NCBI RefSeq assembly: GCF_033001325.1
Contig: NZ_CP133111.1
Coordinates: 4,170,501 to 4,234,500 of the forward strand
Length of the DNA stretch: 64,000 nucleotides
Source of the DNA: Rhodopseudomonas sp. BAL398
GTDB taxonomy: Bacteria > Pseudomonadota > Alphaproteobacteria > Rhizobiales > Xanthobacteraceae
Reading direction: 5' to 3'
Below are positions 46,630-59,006 of the stretch, piece by piece. The notes beneath the pieces were generated by a model. It saw only the letters and a list, made by a program, of their open reading frames with translations. It ran no database searches and was not told where the DNA came from. How positions within the stretch are numbered: position 1 is the first letter of the stretch; each line of letters opens with the position of its first letter. Made by a program: the position numbers and the translations under genes.

Positions 46630-46789
46630 CCACACCAACGCGGCTCCCCGGTGGTCGGCCAGACCGACCGCCGGGGTCCTGGGTTCGAAGGCCGAAGGCC
46701 GTCGACCGGTCCGACGCATTCCCGATGACTTCCTGATGGACATCGTTAAAAGGGGGAATAGCCCGATAGCCTCCTTTGTCGAGTATCCC

Positions 46790-48727
46790 ATGGCCCTCGT
46801 TAAAACCTCCAAGATTCCGAAGACGGCAACCGGAAAACCCCCGGCGCCAGCTGCCAAGGCCGCCAAGCTTCCGGTGGCGGCCAAGCCGGCGGCACGCGCC
46901 GCCAAGGCCGGGACCATGAGCCAGGCCGACCGCGTGGCCGAGCGCATCGCGGCGGCGACCGAGCAGCTGGCGAGCGGCCTGACCCAGGCGTCCGCGGCCG
47001 CCGAGGAACTGCAGGGATCGATGCAACAGATCGCGGCCGGCGCCGACGAGGCCGCCGGAGCGTCGCAGGAGCAGCTGTCGGCAATTTCCAGCGTGTCGAC
47101 CAGCCTGGCCGTGGCCCGCAACGAGGCGGAGAATTCGCGGCGGCGGACCGAGGCCACGCAGCTGCTGATTGCCGAAACCGCGCTGCAGATTTCCGTGTCG
47201 GTGCGCGCCATCGAAAGGAACGCCGAGCGCCAGGTCGCCGCCGGACGGGTCATCGGTGAACTCGACCGCCGCGCCCAGGACGTCGGCGCCATCACCGGGA
47301 CGGTGAGCAAGATCTCGGATCAGACCAACCTTCTTGCCCTCAACGCGGCCATCGAGGCGGCGCGCGCCGGGGATCAAGGCCGGGGCTTCGCCGTCGTCGC
47401 CGACGAGGTGCGGGCGCTGGCCGAAGTCTCCGACAGGAGCGCCCAGGAGGTTCAGGGCCTGGCCGATGAAATCACCGCCAATGTGCGCTCGGCGGTGGAT
47501 GTGGTGGCGGCCGCAGCCAGCGCCGCCGTGGCGCAGGCCCAGGCGGGCGGCCTGGTCGTCGAAACCCTCGCATCGATCCGCGAGGACATGACCGCCCTCG
47601 CCGAGGGCAGCCAGCAGACCGTCACGGCGGCGATCGAGGCGGAACGCGCCATCTTGGAAGCGCAAAAGGGCGCCGAGCAGGTCGCCGGCGCGGCCGAGCA
47701 ACAGGCTTCGGCGGCGAATGAAGCGCAGTCGGCGGTCCGCCAGCAGGCCGAGGCCCTGGCCCAGGGACAGACCGCGGCGCGGGCCCTGGCCGCGCTCACC
47801 GAGGAATTGCGCAACGGCAAGGCCAGCAAATCGGCGCCCGAGCAGATCGCCGGGGCCGCGGAGGAACTGTCCGCGACCATCCAGGAGCTTTCCAGCGCAG
47901 CGAGCCAGATTTCCACCGCCGTCGAGCAGATCAATCGCGGCGCCCAGCAGCAGGCCGCGGCCGCGCAGCAGACGTCCGCGGCCCTGGCGCAGATCGAGGC
48001 GAGCGCGCAACTGGCCCAGCACAAGGGCCAGACTGCCAGCGCACGGGTCGCGGCGATCGAAACCAAGCTCGAGCAAAGCCGGGCATCGGTCGAGCAGTTG
48101 GTCGTCGGCGTCGACCTGTCGCTCAGCCAGACCCGCGACAGCCTGCTGACGATCGTGCAGCTCGAGGCGGTGGGAAGGAAGATCGCCAAGATCGTGGATT
48201 CGATCACGCTGGTGACGATCCAGACCAGCATGCTGGCGGTCAGCGGATCGGTCGAGGCGGCGCGCGCGGGCGATGCCGGCCGAGGCTTTGCGCTGGTGTC
48301 GAATGATATCCGCGGACTGGCGCGCGAAGCCTCCGACAGCGTCGAGCGGATCAAGGACTCGGTGCAGAACATCCTCGACCAGATCACGCTGTTGCGCCGC
48401 GATCTGGAGCAGATCATCGCCGCCGCCGAGGTCGAGGCGCAGAACAACCGCGCCGTCGCCAAGGCCCTGGCCAATGTCACCGACGATCTGGTGGCGCTCG
48501 CGGCGGCCAACCGCGTCGTCGTCTCGGGTGCCGAAAGCATTCTGTCGGGCGCGACGGAATCGGCGATTGCGGCCCGGCAGATCGCCGCGGCGGCAGAGCA
48601 AACCAGTTCGGCGGTGCGCCAGGCCGCGACCGCCTCGACGGAACAGGCCCAGGGCGCCGATGATCTTGCCGCCGCGATCGAGGAGATTGCCTTGCTGTCG
48701 GACGAGCTGATGCAACAGCATGACTGA
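46790..48727 (+). CDS. Soluble methyl-accepting chemotaxis protein with two signalling hairpins
   Basis: A 645-residue cytoplasmic receptor-like protein with no membrane helix and no recognisable sensor domain. After a Lys/Ala/Pro-rich N-terminus (about 45 residues) the whole chain is heptad-rich coiled coil. Numbering from the earlier ATG (46736), one signalling tip lies at about 193-230, canonical ([27 protein letters not shown]), and a second at about 487-530 with altered residues ([20 protein letters not shown] then [17 protein letters not shown]). Thus it carries two tandem MCP signalling domains. The start is put at [11 protein letters not shown]; an earlier ATG at 46736 is possible, and neither has a strong binding site. 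First gene of the chemosensory operon; its stop overlaps the next gene by eight bases. Confidence 0.9.
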
Positions 48728-50234
48728 GACCGTCACTCCCAGCGGCGGCCGCTTCCTGACCTTCCGGTCCGAGGGGCGGCTCTATGCCGTGGCGGCGCAC
48801 AAAGTGTCTGAAGTGGTGCGGATGGCGCCGCTGGCGCGGGTGCCGCAGGCGCCGAAGAGTCTGTTGGGGCTCGCCAATTTGCGCGGCGCGGTGGTGCCGG
48901 TGGCCGGCATGCGCAGCCTGATGGGCCGCGGCGAGATCGCGGTTTCCGACCGTTCGCGCCTGGTCGTGCTCGGCGGCGCGATGCCTGTCGCGCTTGCGGT
49001 CGACGAGGTGGCCTCGCTGGTCACCATCGAGGGCCAGCAGATCCAGGCCGGCGAAGCCGATGCGTCGGCGGAGGCCGAGGAACGGCTGCAAGGCGTGTTC
49101 CAGACCGGCGCGGGCGTCACCAAAATTCTTGATATCGAGGCGCTGCTGGCTCGGGCATTTCCACGCGAGGCCACGGTGCGAAAATCTTCCGGCGGGGTGG
49201 CGAAGCCGATCGCGACGGCAGCCGCCGACATCGTCGTGCGCCGGCGCCTGATTACCTTCGATGTCGCCGGCCAGGAATATGCGCTGTCGCTGGATGCGGT
49301 GCGCGAGATCGTGCTGGCGCCGGACAGCCTGGCCTATGTGCCCGGCAGCGACGAAGCGGTGCGCGGCGTGATGGCCTATCGCGACGGCCTGCTGCCGTTA
49401 TTGTCGCTGCGTGTCCTTCTCGGCCTCGGCGGCCACGCGCCGCAGCACAGCGGCAAGATCATCGTCACGGTCGTGGCCGGCACCGTGGTCGGGTTGATCG
49501 CCGACAACGCCCGCTCGATTCTGTCGGTTGATCCGCGCCTGATCGAGCCCGCCCCAAAGGTGCTGAGCGCCCGCGCCGGCGGCGAAGCACGGATTCAGGA
49601 AATCTACCGCGCCGGCCACGGTCGGCTGATCTCAATCCTGGTCGCAGAGACACTTTTTCGGGAAGACGTCATGCAGAAATTGGCGCAGACGACCGCGCAG
49701 GCCGCCGCCGGCGGGGCCGTCGCCGACGGCACAACAGCCGAGCTGCGGTTTCTGGTGTTTCGGCTCGACGGCAATGAGTTTGCGCTGCCGATCGACGCCG
49801 TCGACGAAGTCGCCCGCGTGCCGGAGCAGATCACGCGGCTGCCGAAGACGCCGAAATTTCTCGAAGGCGTCGTCAATTTGCGCGGCACGGTGCTGCCGGT
49901 GGTCGACCAGCGGCGCCGCTTCGACATGCCGCCGTCGGACGGCGGCGCCGCCCGACGGCTGGTCGTCGTGACCTCCGGCGCCCATCGCGCCGGGCTGATC
50001 GTCGACAGCGTCACCGAGGTGCTGCGCTGTGGCGCCGACGCGATTCGGCCGGCGCCCGAGCTGATGACCGGCGAGGCGCTGGCGCTGGTCGGCTCGGTGA
50101 TCAATCTGGAAGCGTCCGGCCGGATGCTGCTGCTGCTCGATCCCGCGGAGCTGCTGAGCCGCGCCGAGCGGGGCCTGCTGGATTCATTCAGCAAGACCGC
50201 GGCCGGAAAGGACACCAGGCAATCGCGGCCGTGA
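48720..50234 (+). CDS. Triple CheW-domain coupling protein
   Basis: A 504-residue protein made of three CheW-like domains in series, roughly residues 8-150, 172-318 and 338-490. Each has its own start ([72 protein letters not shown]) and the NLRG-like segment [33 protein letters not shown]. CheW joins receptors to CheA; a triple version may link several receptors or kinases in an array. It starts inside the receptor gene and ends inside the cheB start (GTGA). Confidence 0.92.
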
Positions 50235-51310
50235 TCAACCTTCTGATCGTTGACGATTCCGCGCTGGTCCGCAAACTGCTGGGCCAGGTGTTTGCCGCGC
50301 AAGGCGACTTCCAGGTCGCGTTCGCGCGCAGCGGCAAGGAGGCGCTGGCGGCGATCGCCGTCGCGGTGCCGGACGTCGTCACGCTCGACGTGCACATGCC
50401 GGACCTCGACGGGCTGCAATGCCTCGATCGCATCATGATCGAACATCCGTGTCCGGTGATCATGGTCTCGTCGATGACGGCCGACGGCGCCGACGCGACA
50501 TTGGAAGCGCTGCGACTCGGCGCGGTGGATTTCGTCGCCAAACCGACTGGCGCCGTCTCGCTGCGGATCGACGAACTGGCCGCGGAGCTGGTCGCCAAAG
50601 TGCGTCAGGCCGCCGGCGCCAAACTGCGGCCGTCATTGCGGCTTCGCGAGCGGGTCCGCCACCGCATCAGCAACGCGCCGCGCCTGCCGGCCTCGCGCCA
50701 GAAAACCTCCCCCGATATCTCACCCGCGATCGGCGAGGGCATCGTGCTGGTCGGCACGTCGACCGGCGGGCCGCCGGCGCTGGAGGCGTTGCTGACCAGG
50801 CTGCCCGCGGACTTTCCGTGGCCGATCGTGGTGGCGCAGCATATGCCCGCCACCTTCACCGGCTCGCTGGCGCGGCGGCTCGACGGCATCTGCCAGGTCA
50901 GTGTGGTGGAAGTCGCGGCGGTCACCGCGCTGCAGCCCGGTCACGTCTATATCGGGCGCGGCGATGCCGATATCATCATTTCCAGACGCAAGGCAGCCCT
51001 GGTGGCCATGCCGGCGCCCGCGGAGGTGTATCCGTGGCATCCGAGCACCGACCGGCTTGTCAGAAGCGCGATGAACCAGATCGACGCCGGCCAGTTGCTA
51101 GGCATACTCATGACGGGCATGGGCAATGACGGAGCCGAGGCCATGAGCATTCTGCGCAGCAAGGGCGGGCGGACGATCGCCGAAGCCGAGGAGACGGCTG
51201 TGGTGTGGGGCATGCCCGGCGAACTGGTCAAAGCCGGCGGCGCCGACTTTGTCACCCCGTTGCCGGAGATTGCCGCGCAACTGCTCAAGCTGGTGCCGCC
51301 ATGCCTTTGA
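50231..51310 (+). CDS. cheB: Chemotaxis methylesterase CheB
   Basis: A 359-residue response regulator-controlled esterase that removes methyl groups from receptors and deamidates Gln. The receiver domain (1-120) has LIVDDSALVRKLL with the phospho-Asp at 53 in VVTLDVHMPDLDG and Lys in FVAKPTG. The esterase domain shows the catalytic Ser in VGTSTGGPPALEALL, His in VAQHMPATFT and Asp in TGMGNDGAEAM. Starts at GTG overlapping the preceding stop. It pairs with the CheR two genes downstream. Confidence 0.95.
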   Translation: MINLLIVDDSALVRKLLGQVFAAQGDFQVAFARSGKEALAAIAVAVPDVVTLDVHMPDLDGLQCLDRIMIEHPCPVIMVSSMTADGADATLEALRLGAVDFVAKPTGAVSLRIDELAAELVAKVRQAAGAKLRPSLRLRERVRHRISNAPRLPASRQKTSPDISPAIGEGIVLVGTSTGGPPALEALLTRLPADFPWPIVVAQHMPATFTGSLARRLDGICQVSVVEVAAVTALQPGHVYIGRGDADIIISRRKAALVAMPAPAEVYPWHPSTDRLVRSAMNQIDAGQLLGILMTGMGNDGAEAMSILRSKGGRTIAEAEETAVVWGMPGELVKAGGADFVTPLPEIAAQLLKLVPPCL

Positions 51311-51924
51311 TCAAGAGCAAGGCCGCAACACCGGCCAGCGAAACGCTCGACCGCGACAAGATCGCGGCGGCCATCACGCAGGGCAGCGTCGACGAGCGCT
51401 GGGCGGCGGCCCGCGCCGCAGCCGGTCTGCCCACCGGCCTGGAGATCCTGCGTCAGGCGCTGGCGCAGGAAACCGTGCCGCGGGTCCGCGAAGCCATTTT
51501 CACCAGCCTGGGGCGGATCCGGACACCTGCCAGCGCGGCGGTCGTCGCGCCCTGTCTGAGATCGGACGATCCCGACATCCGCACCGGTGCGCTGGACGCG
51601 CTGCGGACCATGCCGGACGCCACCGCACCGCTGCTTGCCGGATTGCTCGACGATGCCGATGCCGATGTTCGCGTATTGGCGTGCGAGCTGGTGCGCAACC
51701 AGCCGGCCGAGGCGGCCAATGATTTGCTGGCGGCGCTGCTGTCTCGCGAAAACGAGACCAATGTCTGTGGCGCCGCGGTCGAGGTGCTGGCCGAGATCGG
51801 CACGCCCGCCGCCCTGCCGGCGCTGGCGCAGTGCGCCGCGCGCTTTCCCGACGATCCCTTCCTCAGCTTCGCCATCGCCATGGCTCGCGACCGCATCGGT
51901 TCGCAAGCGTCTTGCCGTGGTTGA
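51301..51924 (+). CDS. HEAT-repeat domain protein between cheB and cheR
   Basis: A 207-residue protein composed mainly of paired helices of HEAT/Armadillo type, e.g. VDERWAAARAAAGLPTGLEILRQALAQETVPRVREAIFTSLGRI, then SDDPDIRTGALDALRTMPDATAPLLAGLLDDADADVRVLACELVR, a pattern of about 31 residues. HEAT repeats bind partners, so it may be an adaptor or docking factor for CheB/CheR or receptor. Start at MPLIKSKAA overlaps the cheB stop; longer frames exist but are cheB shadow. Its stop overlaps the cheR start. Confidence 0.85.
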   Translation: MPLIKSKAATPASETLDRDKIAAAITQGSVDERWAAARAAAGLPTGLEILRQALAQETVPRVREAIFTSLGRIRTPASAAVVAPCLRSDDPDIRTGALDALRTMPDATAPLLAGLLDDADADVRVLACELVRNQPAEAANDLLAALLSRENETNVCGAAVEVLAEIGTPAALPALAQCAARFPDDPFLSFAIAMARDRIGSQASCRG

Positions 51925-52765
51925 TCCGGTAACCATCACCGAGGACGAGTTTCGCAAACTCGCTGAATTCCTGTACCGGCGTACCGGAATGGTTTTCAAT
52001 GAGAGCAAGCGCTATTACGTCGAGCGCCGGATCATGGACCGGATGGCGGCAACTTCAAATGCCACCTTTGCCCACTACTTCATGTTTCTTCGCGGCGAGA
52101 CCGGTAACGAGGTCGAGCATTTCATCAACGCGTTCACCGTCAACGAGACCTACTTCTATCGCGAAGACCATCAGCTGGAATGTCTGGTTCGCGACCTGCT
52201 GCCGCAGCGCGTGCGCGGCCGACGCAGAGGCGAACCGATCCGGATCTGGTCGGCGCCATGCTCGACCGGCGAGGAGCCCTATTCGATCGCGATCTGGCTG
52301 CTGGAGAACTGGCCACAGGTCGACGCCTACGACATCGAAATCGTCGGCTCGGATATCGATACCGAAGTGCTCGACGCCGCCGCAATCGGCATCTACGGCA
52401 AGCGCGCTTTGATGCGACTGGCGCCCGACATCGTCGCAAAATACTTCCGCCGGCTCGATGACCAGCACTGGCAGATCCTGGAGGACCTGCGGGATTCCGT
52501 TCAGTTCTCCCGCGTCAACATCATGCAGTCGCGCGAGACCCGGCCGCAGGGGCGCTTCGACATCATCTTCTGCCGCAACGTGCTGATCTATTTCGACGAC
52601 GAGTCGCGCCGGCTGGCCGCAGAGAACCTGTTCGAGAATTTGCATCCGGGCGGCTATATCTGTCTCGGTCACACCGAGTCGATGAGCCGGATCTCGCCGC
52701 TGTTCGAGGTGTGCCGGTTTTCGGATGCGATCGTGTACCGGCGCCCCGTGGAGGATCGCACATGA
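51917..52765 (+). CDS. cheR: Chemotaxis methyltransferase CheR
   Basis: A SAM-dependent glutamate methyltransferase for receptors, about 282 residues. The N-terminal helical domain has FRKLAEFLYRRTGMVFNESKRYYVERRIMDRM; the catalytic domain has the SAM motif IRIWSAPCSTGEEPYSIA, then GSDIDTEVLDAA, and the FDIIFCRNVLIYFDD segment. Starts at GTG, overlapping the end of the HEAT-repeat gene by eight bases; no ATG suits. A C-terminal pentapeptide-binding loop is not evident in the sequence. Its stop overlaps the next ATG (ATGA). Confidence 0.95.
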   Translation: MVDPVTITEDEFRKLAEFLYRRTGMVFNESKRYYVERRIMDRMAATSNATFAHYFMFLRGETGNEVEHFINAFTVNETYFYREDHQLECLVRDLLPQRVRGRRRGEPIRIWSAPCSTGEEPYSIAIWLLENWPQVDAYDIEIVGSDIDTEVLDAAAIGIYGKRALMRLAPDIVAKYFRRLDDQHWQILEDLRDSVQFSRVNIMQSRETRPQGRFDIIFCRNVLIYFDDESRRLAAENLFENLHPGGYICLGHTESMSRISPLFEVCRFSDAIVYRRPVEDRT

Positions 52766-53145
52766 CCGCCGGACCGAAACGCGTCCTGATCGTCGACGAC
52801 GCCACCCTGGTGCGGGCCTATTACCGCCAGGCGCTGGAGCGGGCCGGCTATGAGGTCGACGAGGCCATGAACGGCCTCGAAGGCCTGGAAAAGATACTGA
52901 TGCAACCGTTCGATCTGGCGATCGTCGACGTCAACATGCCGCAGATGGACGGCATGACGTTCATCCGAACGCTGCGCGGCAAGGAGCTGCCGACCTCGGC
53001 CATCCCCACCCTCGTCACCAGCACGGAGGCCGGAGAGCAGGACGTCGCTGCGGCCCGCGTCGCCGGGGCGAATTATTATCTGACCAAGCCGATCAGCCAG
53101 GACCGCCTGATCGAGCACGTCGTGCTGCTGTGCGGTGCGGCGTGA
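52762..53145 (+). CDS. CheY-like single-domain response regulator, first copy
   Basis: A 127-residue receiver with no output domain. The acidic pair is D12-D13 (VLIVDDATLVR), the phospho-acceptor Asp56 (LAIVDVNMPQMDG), the switch Thr/Ser in LVTSTE and Lys109 in YYLTKP. It overlaps cheR by four bases and cheA by one, so is likely the direct output or phosphate sink of this CheA. Confidence 0.94.
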   Translation: MTAGPKRVLIVDDATLVRAYYRQALERAGYEVDEAMNGLEGLEKILMQPFDLAIVDVNMPQMDGMTFIRTLRGKELPTSAIPTLVTSTEAGEQDVAAARVAGANYYLTKPISQDRLIEHVVLLCGAA

Positions 53146-55301
53146 TGGATGAATTCGTCGAACAATTCCTGATCGAATCGCGCGAGCTGGTCGAGCAGGG
53201 TACCGCCGCGCTCGCCGCGCTCGAACAGGGTAGCGACGCCGGGCGCGAGATCGACAGCCTGTTTCGCGCCATCCACACCCTGAAGGGCGCCGCCGGCATC
53301 GTCGATTTCGACGCGATGGGCCGGGCGCTGCACGCCGTCGAAGGGCGCCTATCGGAACTGCGTTCGTCGACGCAACCGCCGCCGCCCGGTTTCGTCAGCG
53401 ATTGCTATGTCTGCCTCGACCAGGTCACCCGCTGGCTCGACGAGATGCAGCTCACCGGCGAGCCGCCGAAACAGGCCGAAGCGGCCGCCGATGACATTGT
53501 CGGCCGGTTTACCGGCGCGGCGCCAGCCCTGGCGACGCCGCCGGATCAGGGCTGGCTGGAGCGATTGCGCGCGGCGCATCCCGCGGAGGCGGCCGCGAGC
53601 CGCTCGGCGTTTTTTTATTGTCCGGCGGACGATGCCTTCTTCCGCGGCGAGGATCCGCTTGCGCTGGCGGCGACGGTGCCGGGCGTTGCGGGGCTCGACC
53701 TGTCGCTGGGCGCCGATACCGCGCTTGAAGACTTCGATCCCTTCAGCTGCGCGATCCGTATCGCGGCATTTTCGAGCGCGCCGGTGCCTGAATTGCAGCG
53801 GCTGTTTCACGAGGTGATCGATCAGATAGAGATCGTGGCGTTGGGCGATGCCCCGGCCGGCGACGGCGAACTCTCGGCGACCGCACGCGCGCTTCTGGAG
53901 GCGCAGATCCTGTTGCTCGACAGCAACGAGCCGGGCGGCCGTGCCGGCCGGATCGGATCGGCGGGCAAGATTGCGCTCAATATCCTGCAACTGGCCGGCA
54001 TTGCCGCCGCGTCCGCCGTCGCGCAGGCGCTGGCCGGACCCGAGGGCAGTGCCCGTGAGGCGCTGATCGCTGCCATCAAGGACGTGTTGCACCCACCGCC
54101 ACAGGTCGACGCTCCGCTCACGCCAGCCACGGCGATGCGGTCGTTGCGGGTCGACCTCGACCGCATCGACGCGCTGGTCAATCTGACCGGCGAATTGATG
54201 GTGGTGAAGAATGCGATCGGTCACGTCGCCGGGCAGGCCCAGGCTTTGGAGACCAAGTCGGTCGGACTGGAGTTGCGCAAGCAGCACGACCTGCTGGAGC
54301 GCCTCGTCGGGCAATTGCAGCGCGCCGTGCTCGAGGTGCGGGTCTTGCCGCTGCGGCACGTGTTTCAGCGCTTTCCGCGGCTGGTGCGCGAGATCTCCGC
54401 CACGCTCGGCAAGCCGGTCAGGTTCGTCATCGAAGGCGAGGCGACCGAGGCCGACGCGACGGTGGTCGAAAGCCTGTTCGAGCCGCTGCTGCACGTGCTG
54501 CGCAACGCGATCGGGCACGGCGTCGAAGACCCGGCGGGCCGTGCCGCGGCAGGCAAGGCCGCGGTCGCCACGGTCACGCTGCGGGCGAGCCGGCGGCTTG
54601 AGAACGTCGTCGTCGAGGTCGAGGATGATGGTCGCGGCATCGATATCGCCCGGGTTCGTGACACCGCGCTCGCGCGGCGGATCGTCACCACGGACGCCCT
54701 CGCGGCGATGAGCGAACAGGACATCGTGGCGCTGATTTTTGCGCCGGGCTTCTCCACCGCGGCGGAAGTGACCGGGTTGTCGGGGCGCGGCGTCGGCATG
54801 GATGCCGTCAAGACGGCGGTCGAGCGGATCGGCGGCGGCGTCGCGATCGACAGCCGGCCCGGGCAGGGGACGGTCATTCGACTGAACCTGCCATTCTCGG
54901 TGATGATGACGCGGGTGATGACGGTGGAGGTCGCCGGTCAATCATTCGGCCTGCCGCTCGATGCCGTGGTCGAGACCGCGCTGGTTCCACGCGAGGCCAT
55001 CGTCGCGGTCGGAGCCGGACGCGCCGTCGTGTTGCGCGACCGCACGCTGCCCGTGCTTGATCTGACGGTCGAGCTGGGGCTGCCGGAGCCGGCCGCGGCG
55101 GCAGACGAGGTCCGCATCGTGGTGATCGCCGCCAGCGACCAGCTCGGGGCCATCGCGGTCGACCGGGTGGGTGGCCGCATGGATGTGATGCTGAAGCCGA
55201 TGGAAGGGCTGTTGCAGGGGATGGGCGGCGTCGCCGGTACGACCTTGATGGGGGACGGTCGGGTGCTCGTTGTCCTCGATGTACAGGAACTGTTCATATG
55301 A
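53145..55301 (+). CDS. cheA: Chemotaxis histidine kinase CheA
   Basis: A 718-residue CheA. Domains in order: P1 phosphotransfer with His44 in LFRAIHTLKGAAG; a divergent region at about 140-260 (FYCPADDAFFRGEDPLALAATVPGVAGLDL..) that may stand in for P2; P3 dimerisation (about 335-400, VDLDRIDALVNLTGELMVVKNAI); the ATPase domain with HVLRNAIGHGVED, DDGRGID and GRGVGMDAV; and a C-terminal CheW-like P5 (about 590-718). No receiver is fused. ATG is used; the earlier GTG lies in the preceding gene. Its stop overlaps the next start (ATGA). Confidence 0.94.
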   Translation: MDEFVEQFLIESRELVEQGTAALAALEQGSDAGREIDSLFRAIHTLKGAAGIVDFDAMGRALHAVEGRLSELRSSTQPPPPGFVSDCYVCLDQVTRWLDEMQLTGEPPKQAEAAADDIVGRFTGAAPALATPPDQGWLERLRAAHPAEAAASRSAFFYCPADDAFFRGEDPLALAATVPGVAGLDLSLGADTALEDFDPFSCAIRIAAFSSAPVPELQRLFHEVIDQIEIVALGDAPAGDGELSATARALLEAQILLLDSNEPGGRAGRIGSAGKIALNILQLAGIAAASAVAQALAGPEGSAREALIAAIKDVLHPPPQVDAPLTPATAMRSLRVDLDRIDALVNLTGELMVVKNAIGHVAGQAQALETKSVGLELRKQHDLLERLVGQLQRAVLEVRVLPLRHVFQRFPRLVREISATLGKPVRFVIEGEATEADATVVESLFEPLLHVLRNAIGHGVEDPAGRAAAGKAAVATVTLRASRRLENVVVEVEDDGRGIDIARVRDTALARRIVTTDALAAMSEQDIVALIFAPGFSTAAEVTGLSGRGVGMDAVKTAVERIGGGVAIDSRPGQGTVIRLNLPFSVMMTRVMTVEVAGQSFGLPLDAVVETALVPREAIVAVGAGRAVVLRDRTLPVLDLTVELGLPEPAAAADEVRIVVIAASDQLGAIAVDRVGGRMDVMLKPMEGLLQGMGGVAGTTLMGDGRVLVVLDVQELFI

Positions 55302-55540: not shown

Positions 55541-55617
55541 ATTCTGGCTTCCCGTGCCTAGCGGGACATGCGAAACACCAGCAATACGTCCGCAAACGGA
55601 CGAAGACGGAAGAATTC

Positions 55618-56001
55618 ATGCCCTACAAGCTCTTGATCGTCGATGACAGCAAACTGGCCCGGATGTCGGTCGCTAAGGCGATGAAGGCGCTTTATCCGGA
55701 CTGGACGCGGGTCGAGGCGGCCAATGCCGACGAGGCGTTGGCGCTGTCTGGCGATGCCGCCTTCGACGTTGCCCTGCTCGATTTCAACATGCCAGGCCGC
55801 GACGGGCTCGAGCTGGCGATCGAGCTGCAAAACGCCCATCCGAAATTGCCGATTGCGATCATTTCGGCCAATCACCAGGATGAGATCGTCGCCCGCGCCG
55901 CCGCGATCGGGGCGGTGTTCCTGCCAAAGCCCCTGACCGAAGCCGCGTTGTCCAAATTTTTGCTGACAGCGCTCCAACAACTTGAATCGGCCAAGCGATG
56001 A
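55618..56001 (+). CDS. CheY-like single-domain response regulator, second copy
   Basis: A 127-residue receiver. D9-D10 (LLIVDDSKLAR), phospho-acceptor Asp55 (VALLDFNMPGRDG), Lys104 (FLPKPL) and the Ser in IISANHQ form the usual active site. It differs clearly from the first copy (second residue after the Asp and the switch region), so is a separate lineage. Start at MPYKLLIVDD with GGAAG ten bases upstream; earlier frame residues do not fit. The stop overlaps the CheC gene by four bases. Confidence 0.93.
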   Translation: MPYKLLIVDDSKLARMSVAKAMKALYPDWTRVEAANADEALALSGDAAFDVALLDFNMPGRDGLELAIELQNAHPKLPIAIISANHQDEIVARAAAIGAVFLPKPLTEAALSKFLLTALQQLESAKR

Positions 56002-56654
56002 CCATGACGGCGCCATCGCTGCTCAACGATCTGCAACTCGATGCACTGACCGAACTGGTCAATATCGGCGTCAGCCGGGCCGCGACCAATTTGCGCGAGA
56101 TGGTCGGCGCGCAGGTGCACTTGTCGGTGCCGACGGTCGAACTGGTGACGCGCGGCCGTGCGATCGCCATCCTGGCGGAGCGCGAGAGCGACAACCTGGT
56201 CGCTGTGCATCAGGTGTTCGAGGGCGATATCGGCGGCCGCGCGCTGCTGATCTTTCCGGAAACCAAAAGTCTCGAGCTGGTTCGCGCCATCACCGGCGGC
56301 GATCTTCCGCTCGAGGACATCATCGAACTCGAGCAGGAGGCGTTGGCCGAAACCGGCAACGTGCTGCTCAACAGCTGCCTGGCGACCATCGCCAACATGT
56401 TGCATCGCAGCCTGAAGATGTCGCTGCCGGAAGTGCTACGCGGCAATGCCGCGACATTCTTCAGCCTTGTGCCGCCGGAAGCCGACGACATCGTGCCGCC
56501 GCCGGAAGCCGGCGACATCGTGATGTTCCTCTACATCACCTTCGCGGTACGCGAACGCGACATCAGCGGCTACATCGCCATGATCATGGACATGCCGTCG
56601 CTGACGGCGCTCACTCAATTGCTCGACGAGTTCATCGAACGAACAGCAGGCTGA
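55998..56654 (+). CDS. cheC: CheC-type phosphatase
   Basis: A 218-residue CheC/CheX/FliY-family protein. CheC removes phosphate from CheY-P. Two catalytic motifs are seen: Glu19 and Asn22 in ALTELVNIGVSRA, and Glu118 and Asn121 in ALAETGNVLLNSC, each of the E-x-x-N type. The two-site layout marks CheC rather than CheX. It is best known from Bacillus and Thermotoga; it is less usual in alphaproteobacteria, where CheZ or phosphate sinks are common. The gene overlaps the second CheY-like gene. Confidence 0.88.
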   Translation: MTMTAPSLLNDLQLDALTELVNIGVSRAATNLREMVGAQVHLSVPTVELVTRGRAIAILAERESDNLVAVHQVFEGDIGGRALLIFPETKSLELVRAITGGDLPLEDIIELEQEALAETGNVLLNSCLATIANMLHRSLKMSLPEVLRGNAATFFSLVPPEADDIVPPPEAGDIVMFLYITFAVRERDISGYIAMIMDMPSLTALTQLLDEFIERTAG

Positions 56655-56663
56655 CCCACGCCG

Positions 56664-59006
56664 ATGTCCGAGCTTGACCAGGGGCTGTTGAAGGCGGCGC
56701 TGAACGCGCTCGATGCAGGCATCGCGATCCTCGATCATTCCGGTCGCGTGATCGGCTGGAACGACTGGCTGGTATCGGCCAGCGGCATCGCTTCCGCCGA
56801 TGCCGCCGGCAAGTCGCTGTCGGAGATCTTTGGCACGGCGCTGTCGAACCGGTTGATGACGGCGATCACCGATGCGCTGACGCTGAATTCATCCGGCTTC
56901 CTCACCCATTCGCTCAATCCCAAGCTGTTTCCGTTCCGCACCCGGGCGGGACTGCCGATGCTGCAGAACGTCACCATCCGCCCGCTGGGGACGTCGGCGG
57001 AATCGCGCTGCCTGATCCAGGTCGTCGACGTGACCGGCGCCGCGCATCGCGAGAAGGTGCTGCGCGAGCGCCAGAATGCCCGCTACGACGCCGTGGTCGA
57101 AAGCGCGCCCGACGCGATCCTGACGCTCGACGCCGCGGGGGTGGTGCGCTTCGCCAATCCGTCCGCGGCGCGCGAAATCGGTTACCCGCCGCAGGACCTG
57201 GTCGGACAGCCGCTCGGCATTCTGTTTGACGATGCAACGGAATGGGACGCGCTGCTGGGCCGCGTGCTGAACGGCGAGAGCTCGGGGCGCCCGATCGAGC
57301 TGCTGGCGCGACGCAAGGATGGCACCGATACGCGGCTGGAGATTTCGGCTTCCCGATGGGTCAGCGCCGGGCGTTTTCTCATCACCGCGATCCTGCGCGA
57401 CGTCAGCGAGCGCCATGCCGCCCAACAGGCGCTTCAGGCGCTCAATCTCACCCTGGAAAAGCGCGTCGCCGAGCGCACCCAGGAGCGCGATCAGGTCTGG
57501 CAGGTCAGCCAGGACATGCTCGGCGTCGCCGACGTCAACGGCATCTGGATCAGCGTCAACCCGGCATGGCAGCATACGCTGGGGTGGATGCCCGAAGATA
57601 TCCGGGGCAAGACGCTGGCCTGGCTGCAGGAGCCGGCCGAGGGCATCAGCAGCCTGGAGCAGTTTGTCCAGCTCGCCGCGACCGAGCAGACTTTTCATTT
57701 CGAGAACAGCCTTCGCACCCGTGACGGTGAGTACCGCGTGCTGTCGTGGACGGCGGTTCATGCCGAGGGGCTGATCTATTGCGTGGCGCGCGACATCACC
57801 GAGCAACGGCGCCAGCAGGAGGCGCTGCTCAAGGCCGAGGACGCGCTGCGGCAGTCGCAGAAGATGGAGGCGGTCGGACAGCTCACCGGCGGCCTCGCCC
57901 ATGACTTCAACAATCTACTGACGGGCATTTCCGGAAGCCTGGAACTGTTGCAGTTGCGGATCTCGCAGGGCCGCCACAAGGACGTCGAGCGCTATATTTC
58001 GACCGCCCAGGGCGCGGCCAACCGCGCCGCGGCGCTGACGCATCGGCTGCTGGCGTTTTCGCGCCGGCAGACGCTCGATCCGAAGGCGACCGACATCAAC
58101 CGTCTGATCGCCGGCATGCGCGACCTGATCGACAACACGGTCAGCCCGGCGATCGAGACGCGGATCGTCGAGTCTGCCTCGCTTTGGACAACGCTGGTCG
58201 ATCCCAACCAACTCGAAAATGCCCTGCTCAACCTGTGCATCAACGCGCGCGACGCCATGCCGGACGGCGGCAGCCTGACGATCGAGACGCAGAATCATGC
58301 GTTCGATTCCGTCTCGGCTCAGATCCTCGAGATTCCGGCGGGCGACTATGTCGGTCTTTCAGTCCTGGATTCGGGCACGGGAATGAATGAAGAGGTGATG
58401 CAGCGCGCCTTCGATCCTTTCTATACGACCAAGCCGCTGGGGCAGGGGACCGGGCTCGGGCTGTCGATGATTTACGGCTTTGCCAAGCAATCGGGCGGCC
58501 AGGTGCGAATTACCTCGAAGGTCGGCGTCGGCACCAAGGTCGAGATTTTCCTGCCGCGTCACGATCAGCTTGAAGCCGCGCTCGATTCGGCCGCCGATAT
58601 CTCGCATTCGCCGCGGGCGCGGGCCGGCGAAACCGTCCTGATCGTCGATGACGAGCCGTCGGTTCGCATGCTGATCACCGAGGTGCTGGCCGAGCTCGGC
58701 TACACCTCGATCGAGGCGTCCGAAGGCTCGAGCGCACTTCGCGTGTTGCAGTCGGACGTCCGGATCGATCTGCTTGTCACCGATGTCGGCCTGCCCGGCG
58801 GCATGAACGGACGCCAGCTGGCCGATTACGGACGCATCGCCCGACCGGAGCTGAAAGTCCTGTTCATCACCGGCTATGCCGAGAAGTCCGTGCTGGGCGG
58901 CGAACAGATCGAGGACGGCATGAGCATTTTGACCAAGCCGTTCGCTATGGAAGGCCTCGCCACGCGGATCAAGGAGTTGATCGCGCTCAACGCGACGACT
59001 CACTGA
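56664..59006 (+). CDS. PAS-containing hybrid histidine kinase with receiver
   Basis: A 780-residue soluble hybrid kinase. Three PAS segments are seen at about 1-125 (AGIAILDHSGRVIGWND), 138-255 (AILTLDAAGVVRFANPSAAREIGY) and 278-385 (GVADVNGIWISVNPAWQHTLGW), with a coiled coil at 255-275. The HisKA phosphorylation site is His413 in GGLAHDFNNLLTG; the ATPase has LENALLNLCINARDAM, DSGTGM and GTGLGLSM; the receiver from 655 has VLIVDDEPSV and Asp707. No membrane helix. It starts 9 bases after cheC and closes the operon. It may feed or drain phosphate from the CheY-like proteins. Confidence 0.93.
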   Translation: MSELDQGLLKAALNALDAGIAILDHSGRVIGWNDWLVSASGIASADAAGKSLSEIFGTALSNRLMTAITDALTLNSSGFLTHSLNPKLFPFRTRAGLPMLQNVTIRPLGTSAESRCLIQVVDVTGAAHREKVLRERQNARYDAVVESAPDAILTLDAAGVVRFANPSAAREIGYPPQDLVGQPLGILFDDATEWDALLGRVLNGESSGRPIELLARRKDGTDTRLEISASRWVSAGRFLITAILRDVSERHAAQQALQALNLTLEKRVAERTQERDQVWQVSQDMLGVADVNGIWISVNPAWQHTLGWMPEDIRGKTLAWLQEPAEGISSLEQFVQLAATEQTFHFENSLRTRDGEYRVLSWTAVHAEGLIYCVARDITEQRRQQEALLKAEDALRQSQKMEAVGQLTGGLAHDFNNLLTGISGSLELLQLRISQGRHKDVERYISTAQGAANRAAALTHRLLAFSRRQTLDPKATDINRLIAGMRDLIDNTVSPAIETRIVESASLWTTLVDPNQLENALLNLCINARDAMPDGGSLTIETQNHAFDSVSAQILEIPAGDYVGLSVLDSGTGMNEEVMQRAFDPFYTTKPLGQGTGLGLSMIYGFAKQSGGQVRITSKVGVGTKVEIFLPRHDQLEAALDSAADISHSPRARAGETVLIVDDEPSVRMLITEVLAELGYTSIEASEGSSALRVLQSDVRIDLLVTDVGLPGGMNGRQLADYGRIARPELKVLFITGYAEKSVLGGEQIEDGMSILTKPFAMEGLATRIKELIALNATTH

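Follow-up and report, generated by a model that had tools for sequence, protein, structure and literature searches.

A DosM-type chemoreceptor with two signalling domains in a probable F9-class gene cluster of Rhodopseudomonas sp. BAL398

The chemoreceptor DosM of Vibrio cholerae (VC1403) is described in PMC7534058 as having two signalling domains, and it is numbered there beside a concatenated triple CheW, VC1402. The same account presents DosM as an extended rod that has a signalling domain at each end and is integrated in both baseplates, and as required for the formation of arrays or clusters in V. cholerae (PMC7534058). DosM and the concatenated triple CheW define the F9 class, as set out in PMC7534058 and PMC9321776. 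In a survey of 2781 species, F9 clusters were full in 64 and partial in 8, and 98% of DosM homologs consisted of two signalling domains only, with no sensor (PMC9321776).

Soluble MCP hairpins are also found in single-tip cytoplasmic receptors, such as Tm14 of Thermotoga (3g67) and TlpT/TlpC of Rhodobacter sphaeroides, but these have one tip per chain, so that a sandwich built from them needs two opposed receptor layers. The cytoplasmic domain of T. maritima TM1143 (2ch7) is matched over its whole hairpin by one half of the receptor modelled here, but it is a single hairpin and comes from a transmembrane receptor.

The window, by which we mean the whole 64,000 nucleotide stretch analysed (contig NZ_CP133111.1, positions 4,170,501 to 4,234,500), encodes a soluble chain that, like V. 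cholerae DosM, has two MCP signalling domains, is without a sensor and adjoins a triple-domain CheW. The likeness to the V. cholerae protein is one of description; the sequences compared were those of three further two-tip homologs from a genus of 227 genomes, probably Vibrio, which are 36% identical to the window receptor. The rod arrangement of V. cholerae DosM is an assignment from cryo-ET, and for the window receptor it would hold by analogy. At the level of sequence this is a receptor of a known kind, DosM-type and F9-class, with every defining feature examined present: tandem signalling domains, no sensor or transmembrane segment, CheW3, and a CheA, CheY, CheR and CheB of its own.

Gene content of the locus

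The receptor gene lies in an open frame on the forward strand (46736-48727), in which an ATG at 46736 is in frame with another at 46790. The ATG at 46790 is likely the start codon, because orthologs begin MALVK at the same point (MALVKTSK... in the window protein). In a profile search, PF00015 was matched twice in this single frame, over separate stretches that scored 94.4 and 53.7 bits (curated cut-off 34.6 bits). No domain other than PF00015 was found in a Pfam search of the 645 aa protein, and no hydrophobic window rose above the Kyte-Doolittle threshold for a membrane helix, in agreement with the initial annotation, which had seen neither a sensor domain nor a membrane helix. No NCBIfam model applied to the receptor, as every match was far under its cut-off, and PLSDB contained no plasmid with a match covering 80% of the receptor query.

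The receptor is the first gene listed in the cluster in Table 1. From the receptor through CheA, neighbouring genes overlap by 1-10 bases, a gap of 310 bases separates CheA from the second CheY, and the kinase frame begins 9 bases past the CheC/CheX gene. At all homolog loci for which sufficient flanking sequence was available, apart from L024, CheW3 is encoded directly downstream of the receptor. Two of these loci, L001 and L002, have an identical gene order that includes the kinase, for which counterparts are found at the same place in both (41% identity), and most of the order is also present in L003. Sensory input to the F9 system may come from this PAS hybrid kinase. The CheW-domain loci of the genome are consistent with four CheA genes, of which that of the cluster is one, and the cluster places a complete F9 system in an alphaproteobacterium with three other CheA-type loci.

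Within CheW3, the NLRG motif is degenerate in the middle CheW domain (residues 207-238) and is kept in domains 1 and 3, hinting that the three CheW modules might bind unequally.

Table 1. Features of the receptor and of the surrounding gene cluster (window coordinates)
Feature	Position	Strand	Evidence or remarks
DosM-type double-signalling-domain chemoreceptor, 645 aa	46790-48727	+	PF00015 twice; ortholog starts; 24-member family
N-terminal tail, disordered, Ala/Pro/Lys-rich, residues 1-44	46790-46921	+	pLDDT <50 at residues 1-42; most family indels here
First hairpin, helices 45-192 and 194-341	46922-47812	+	AlphaFold2; 3.5 periodicity; 2ch7 match TMt 0.88
Tip 1, residues 178-211	47321-47422	+	sequence; canonical; most conserved segment (entropy 0.70)
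Non-helical junction, residues 342-348	47813-47833	+	AlphaFold2 secondary structure; heptad phase shift about -1 residue
Second hairpin, helices 349-492 and 494-644	47834-48721	+	AlphaFold2; 3.5 periodicity
Tip 2, residues 478-511	48221-48322	+	signature MLAV.G.[VI]EAAR.G; exactly 300 residues past tip 1
CheW3, three concatenated CheW domains	48720-50234	+	PF01584 three times; 8-base overlap with receptor gene
CheB, receiver and methylesterase	50231-51310	+	PF00072, PF01339
HEAT-repeat protein, between CheB and CheR	51301-51924	+	PF13646; same place in L001, L002, L003
CheR methyltransferase, GTG start	51917-52765	+	PF01739, PF03705
CheY-like single-domain receiver	52762-53145	+	PF00072
CheA: Hpt, dimerisation, ATPase and CheW-like domains	53145-55301	+	PF01627, PF02895, PF02518, PF01584
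Second CheY-like receiver	55612-56001	+	PF00072
CheC/CheX-type phosphatase-like protein	55998-56654	+	PF13690, PF04509
Putative hybrid histidine kinase (long frame; PAS, receiver)	56664-59006	+	named from sequence only

Two hairpins in one chain

Comparison of the halves of the receptor by hhalign gave a gap-free alignment of residues 46-340 with residues 346-645 over 293 columns (probability 100, E 1.3e-42, 27% identity), and ungapped self-identity was highest at an offset of exactly 300, where it reached 26%; offsets 280-320 averaged 12%. All four arms have a sharp 3.5-residue hydrophobic period, which was reached by 0 of 1000 shuffles. The AlphaFold2 monomer (pLDDT 88, pTM 0.64) has the four helices given in Table 1 and turns its hairpins at residues 193 and 493; a break of seven residues (342-348), at which the heptad phase changes, lies between the hairpins. 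An antiparallel heptad hairpin with a conserved turn and a score over the cut-off are among the characters of the PF00015 family, and both are present here. When Foldseek was used to compare one half of the model with T. maritima 2ch7, an rmsd of 2.4 over 298 columns was obtained (TMt in Table 1). As modelled, the receptor is two complete hairpin domains that are joined base to base through a 7-residue linker.

The initial annotation proposed a cytoplasmic receptor in which two signalling hairpins stand in tandem, and the periodicity of both halves and the predicted turns bear this out. Heptad analysis of the second half gave a 3.5-residue period in both of its arms, as in a receptor bundle, and its tip contains the predicted turn at residue 493. 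We take the second tip to be a true hairpin turn because the AlphaFold2 turns, the 3.5 periodicity and the hairpin match all point to one, and the outcome named in the initial annotation as refuting its proposal was not obtained. The EAARAGD.GRGFA core that was said to be shared by the two tips is present in the sequence, but the distance given between them, 294 residues, is not correct, as the tips are 300 residues apart. Glx pairs that resemble the methylation-site consensus occur in each half, for example at residues 303 (14/21 sequences), 358 (17/21) and 603 (10/21).

Arrangement of the receptor in the array

We put at about 0.7 the probability that the receptor is the DosM-type scaffold of an F9-class cytoplasmic chemosensory system and serves as a strut that bridges two baseplates. 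By analogy with V. cholerae DosM, two chains would pair as a homodimeric strut whose ends each carry a tip, each tip would enter its own CheA/CheW3 baseplate, and the strut would tie two opposed receptor lattices into a membrane-free sandwich. Sensory input might arrive via further soluble receptors or from the PAS kinase nearby, and adaptation would presumably be carried out by CheR and CheB, the Glx pairs of methylation-site type being found in both halves. The strut is held to be the most likely arrangement because the rod model rests on imaging, namely the cryo-ET of V. cholerae.

Two features of the prediction stand against a strut. The AlphaFold2 monomer apparently sets the two hairpins side by side with the tips together, as read from its VIA-align matches, and no continuous helix runs through the junction, which forms a loop where the heptad phase shifts. 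The best VIA-align matches of the model were single-chain four-helix bundles, in an alignment that spans model residues 143-548. The match to 6z0c_C had a Z of 19.3 and an rmsd of 2.1 over 198/198 residues, but helical bundles easily score a high Z.

The length of the strut also bears on this question. At a rise of about 10.5 Å per heptad (PMC6628036), a straight strut of 300 residues would be about 44-45 nm long. A computed length of about 44 nm disagrees with the distance between the baseplates of the V. cholerae F9 array, which is 35 nm (PMC7184735). In sandwiches formed in vitro by single-hairpin Tar fragments the distance is 31 nm (PMC3964821), which means that arrays of this type can be made shorter by bases that overlap or are disordered. 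With about 44 nm predicted and 35 nm reported, the array geometry is directly checkable.

An unlikely alternative is a single-chain pseudo-dimer in place of the usual homodimer, with the chain turning back on itself at residues 342-348 and its hairpins packed against each other in a single four-helix bundle that has both tips at the same end. In such a bundle the tips would make up a fixed hetero-pair, able to split the trimer contacts and the CheA/CheW contacts between them. A built-in dimer of hairpins had been put forward in the initial annotation, and the AlphaFold2 monomer appears to take that form. The apparently folded-back monomer is consistent with this, as are the equal, gap-free halves, the location of all four helix ends at the junction, the junction loop with its phase shift, the presence of two tips that have diverged and yet are fixed, and a straight strut that seems to exceed the reported baseplate distance. 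However, the fold-back is not decisive, because a monomer run tends to fold back anyway, and in a prediction made without a partner chain this is expected under either arrangement. The usual trimer and kinase-contact residues are kept in both tips, with no division of labour visible, and the cryo-ET account in PMC7534058 makes V. cholerae DosM a rod that bears a tip on either end. The broader proposal, that DosM-family receptors, that of the window included, are single-chain pseudo-dimers in which diverged tips lie side by side at one baseplate and have separate jobs, is marginally less probable still. If it were true, the accepted rod model of DosM would need revision.

The second tip and the two-tip family

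The initial annotation had called for a search for other two-tip receptors, and homologs were found across the alpha- and gammaproteobacteria. Together with the window receptor, the 23 homologs make up a family of 24 proteins. Two-tip relatives were present in 4 of 289 class genomes, 10 of 397 phylum genomes and 9 of 297 order genomes (the window's own genome counted), and among the named loci is one from Methylocapsa palsarum (about 60% identity). Occurrence is patchy, at about 1-3% of the genomes searched, which agrees with the published 2%.

The spacing of the tips is exactly 300 residues in 21 of the 24 members, including all three probable Vibrio proteins. In a 21-row alignment, 18 rows have a spacing of 300 and one row each has 299, 296 and 302, and there are zero gaps from residue 46 to tip 1 across the aligned sequences. 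Mean column entropy in the same alignment is 0.70 bits for tip 1, 0.98 bits for tip 2 and 1.8-1.9 bits for the arms. In a maximum-likelihood tree, all of the second halves form one clade with 100/100 support, which is separated by a long distance from the first halves.

As the initial annotation had recognised, the first tip is canonical and the second is altered, with several residues that differ from the canonical motif. In Tsr numbering, the changes in tip 2 are N376S, L380V, N381S, A382G and A383S, and the equivalents of Tsr E385, R388, F396 and R404 are retained. The M, L, V and G of the tip-2 motif are equivalent to Tsr 377, 378, 380 and 382. In all of the homologs tip 2 has an almost fixed pattern, MLAV-x-G-x-[VI]EAAR, and the probable Vibrio proteins carry QTAMLAVNGAVEAARAGE there. 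The L, the V and, third, the G of the motif MLAV.G are invariant in 21/21 rows and the M is found in 20/21. Tip 2 also aligns with Thermotoga Tm14. Because the pattern is near-fixed in homologs that include the probable Vibrio proteins, and because the second halves are one clade, we conclude from the alignment and the tree that the differences in tip 2 are an old, maintained signature rather than decay.

It had been suggested that only one tip may be active, the other having a decoy or inhibitory role; such a tip would titrate CheW or CheA. The non-canonical positions of tip 2 might favour this, but tip 2 is far better conserved than the arms, and its changes are conservative, are a fixed family signature common to alpha- and gammaproteobacterial homologs, and are absent from the single-tip receptors recovered in this genome. 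Given the conservation of tip 2, a decoy or inhibitory role is unsupported and was dropped as very improbable. Tip 2 would instead be a specialised, array-competent tip that is probably tuned to its own lattice neighbours. A lattice partner might be recognised by a tip-2-like motif elsewhere among the receptors of the genome, but none was found among the tips recovered by pattern, all of which are single (30 loci searched, 5 of which gave no tip to the pattern).

We did not find the 300-residue tip-to-tip lock or the fixed second-tip motif stated in the DosM literature cited here, and both bear on how sandwich arrays are constructed. That the receptor is the product of a chance fusion or tandem duplication in one genome, without distinct function, has next to no probability, for although the halves are plainly duplicates of each other, such an origin is ruled out by a conserved family in which alpha- and gammaproteobacterial two-tip homologs share spacing and neighbours, and by the single clade of second halves in the tree.

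Three genomes of one genus, from the same order as the window, contain DosM homologs with strongly degenerate tips (L022, L023 and L024, with spacings of 300, 296 and 302, respectively). The most degenerate is L024, in which the tips read GETRILSLNASVEAAHAG and GQTGALGVDGSLEAARG and a CheA-like match is found in place of the adjoining CheW3. This may be a lineage whose two-tip receptor has kept its shape but no longer has a kinase role.
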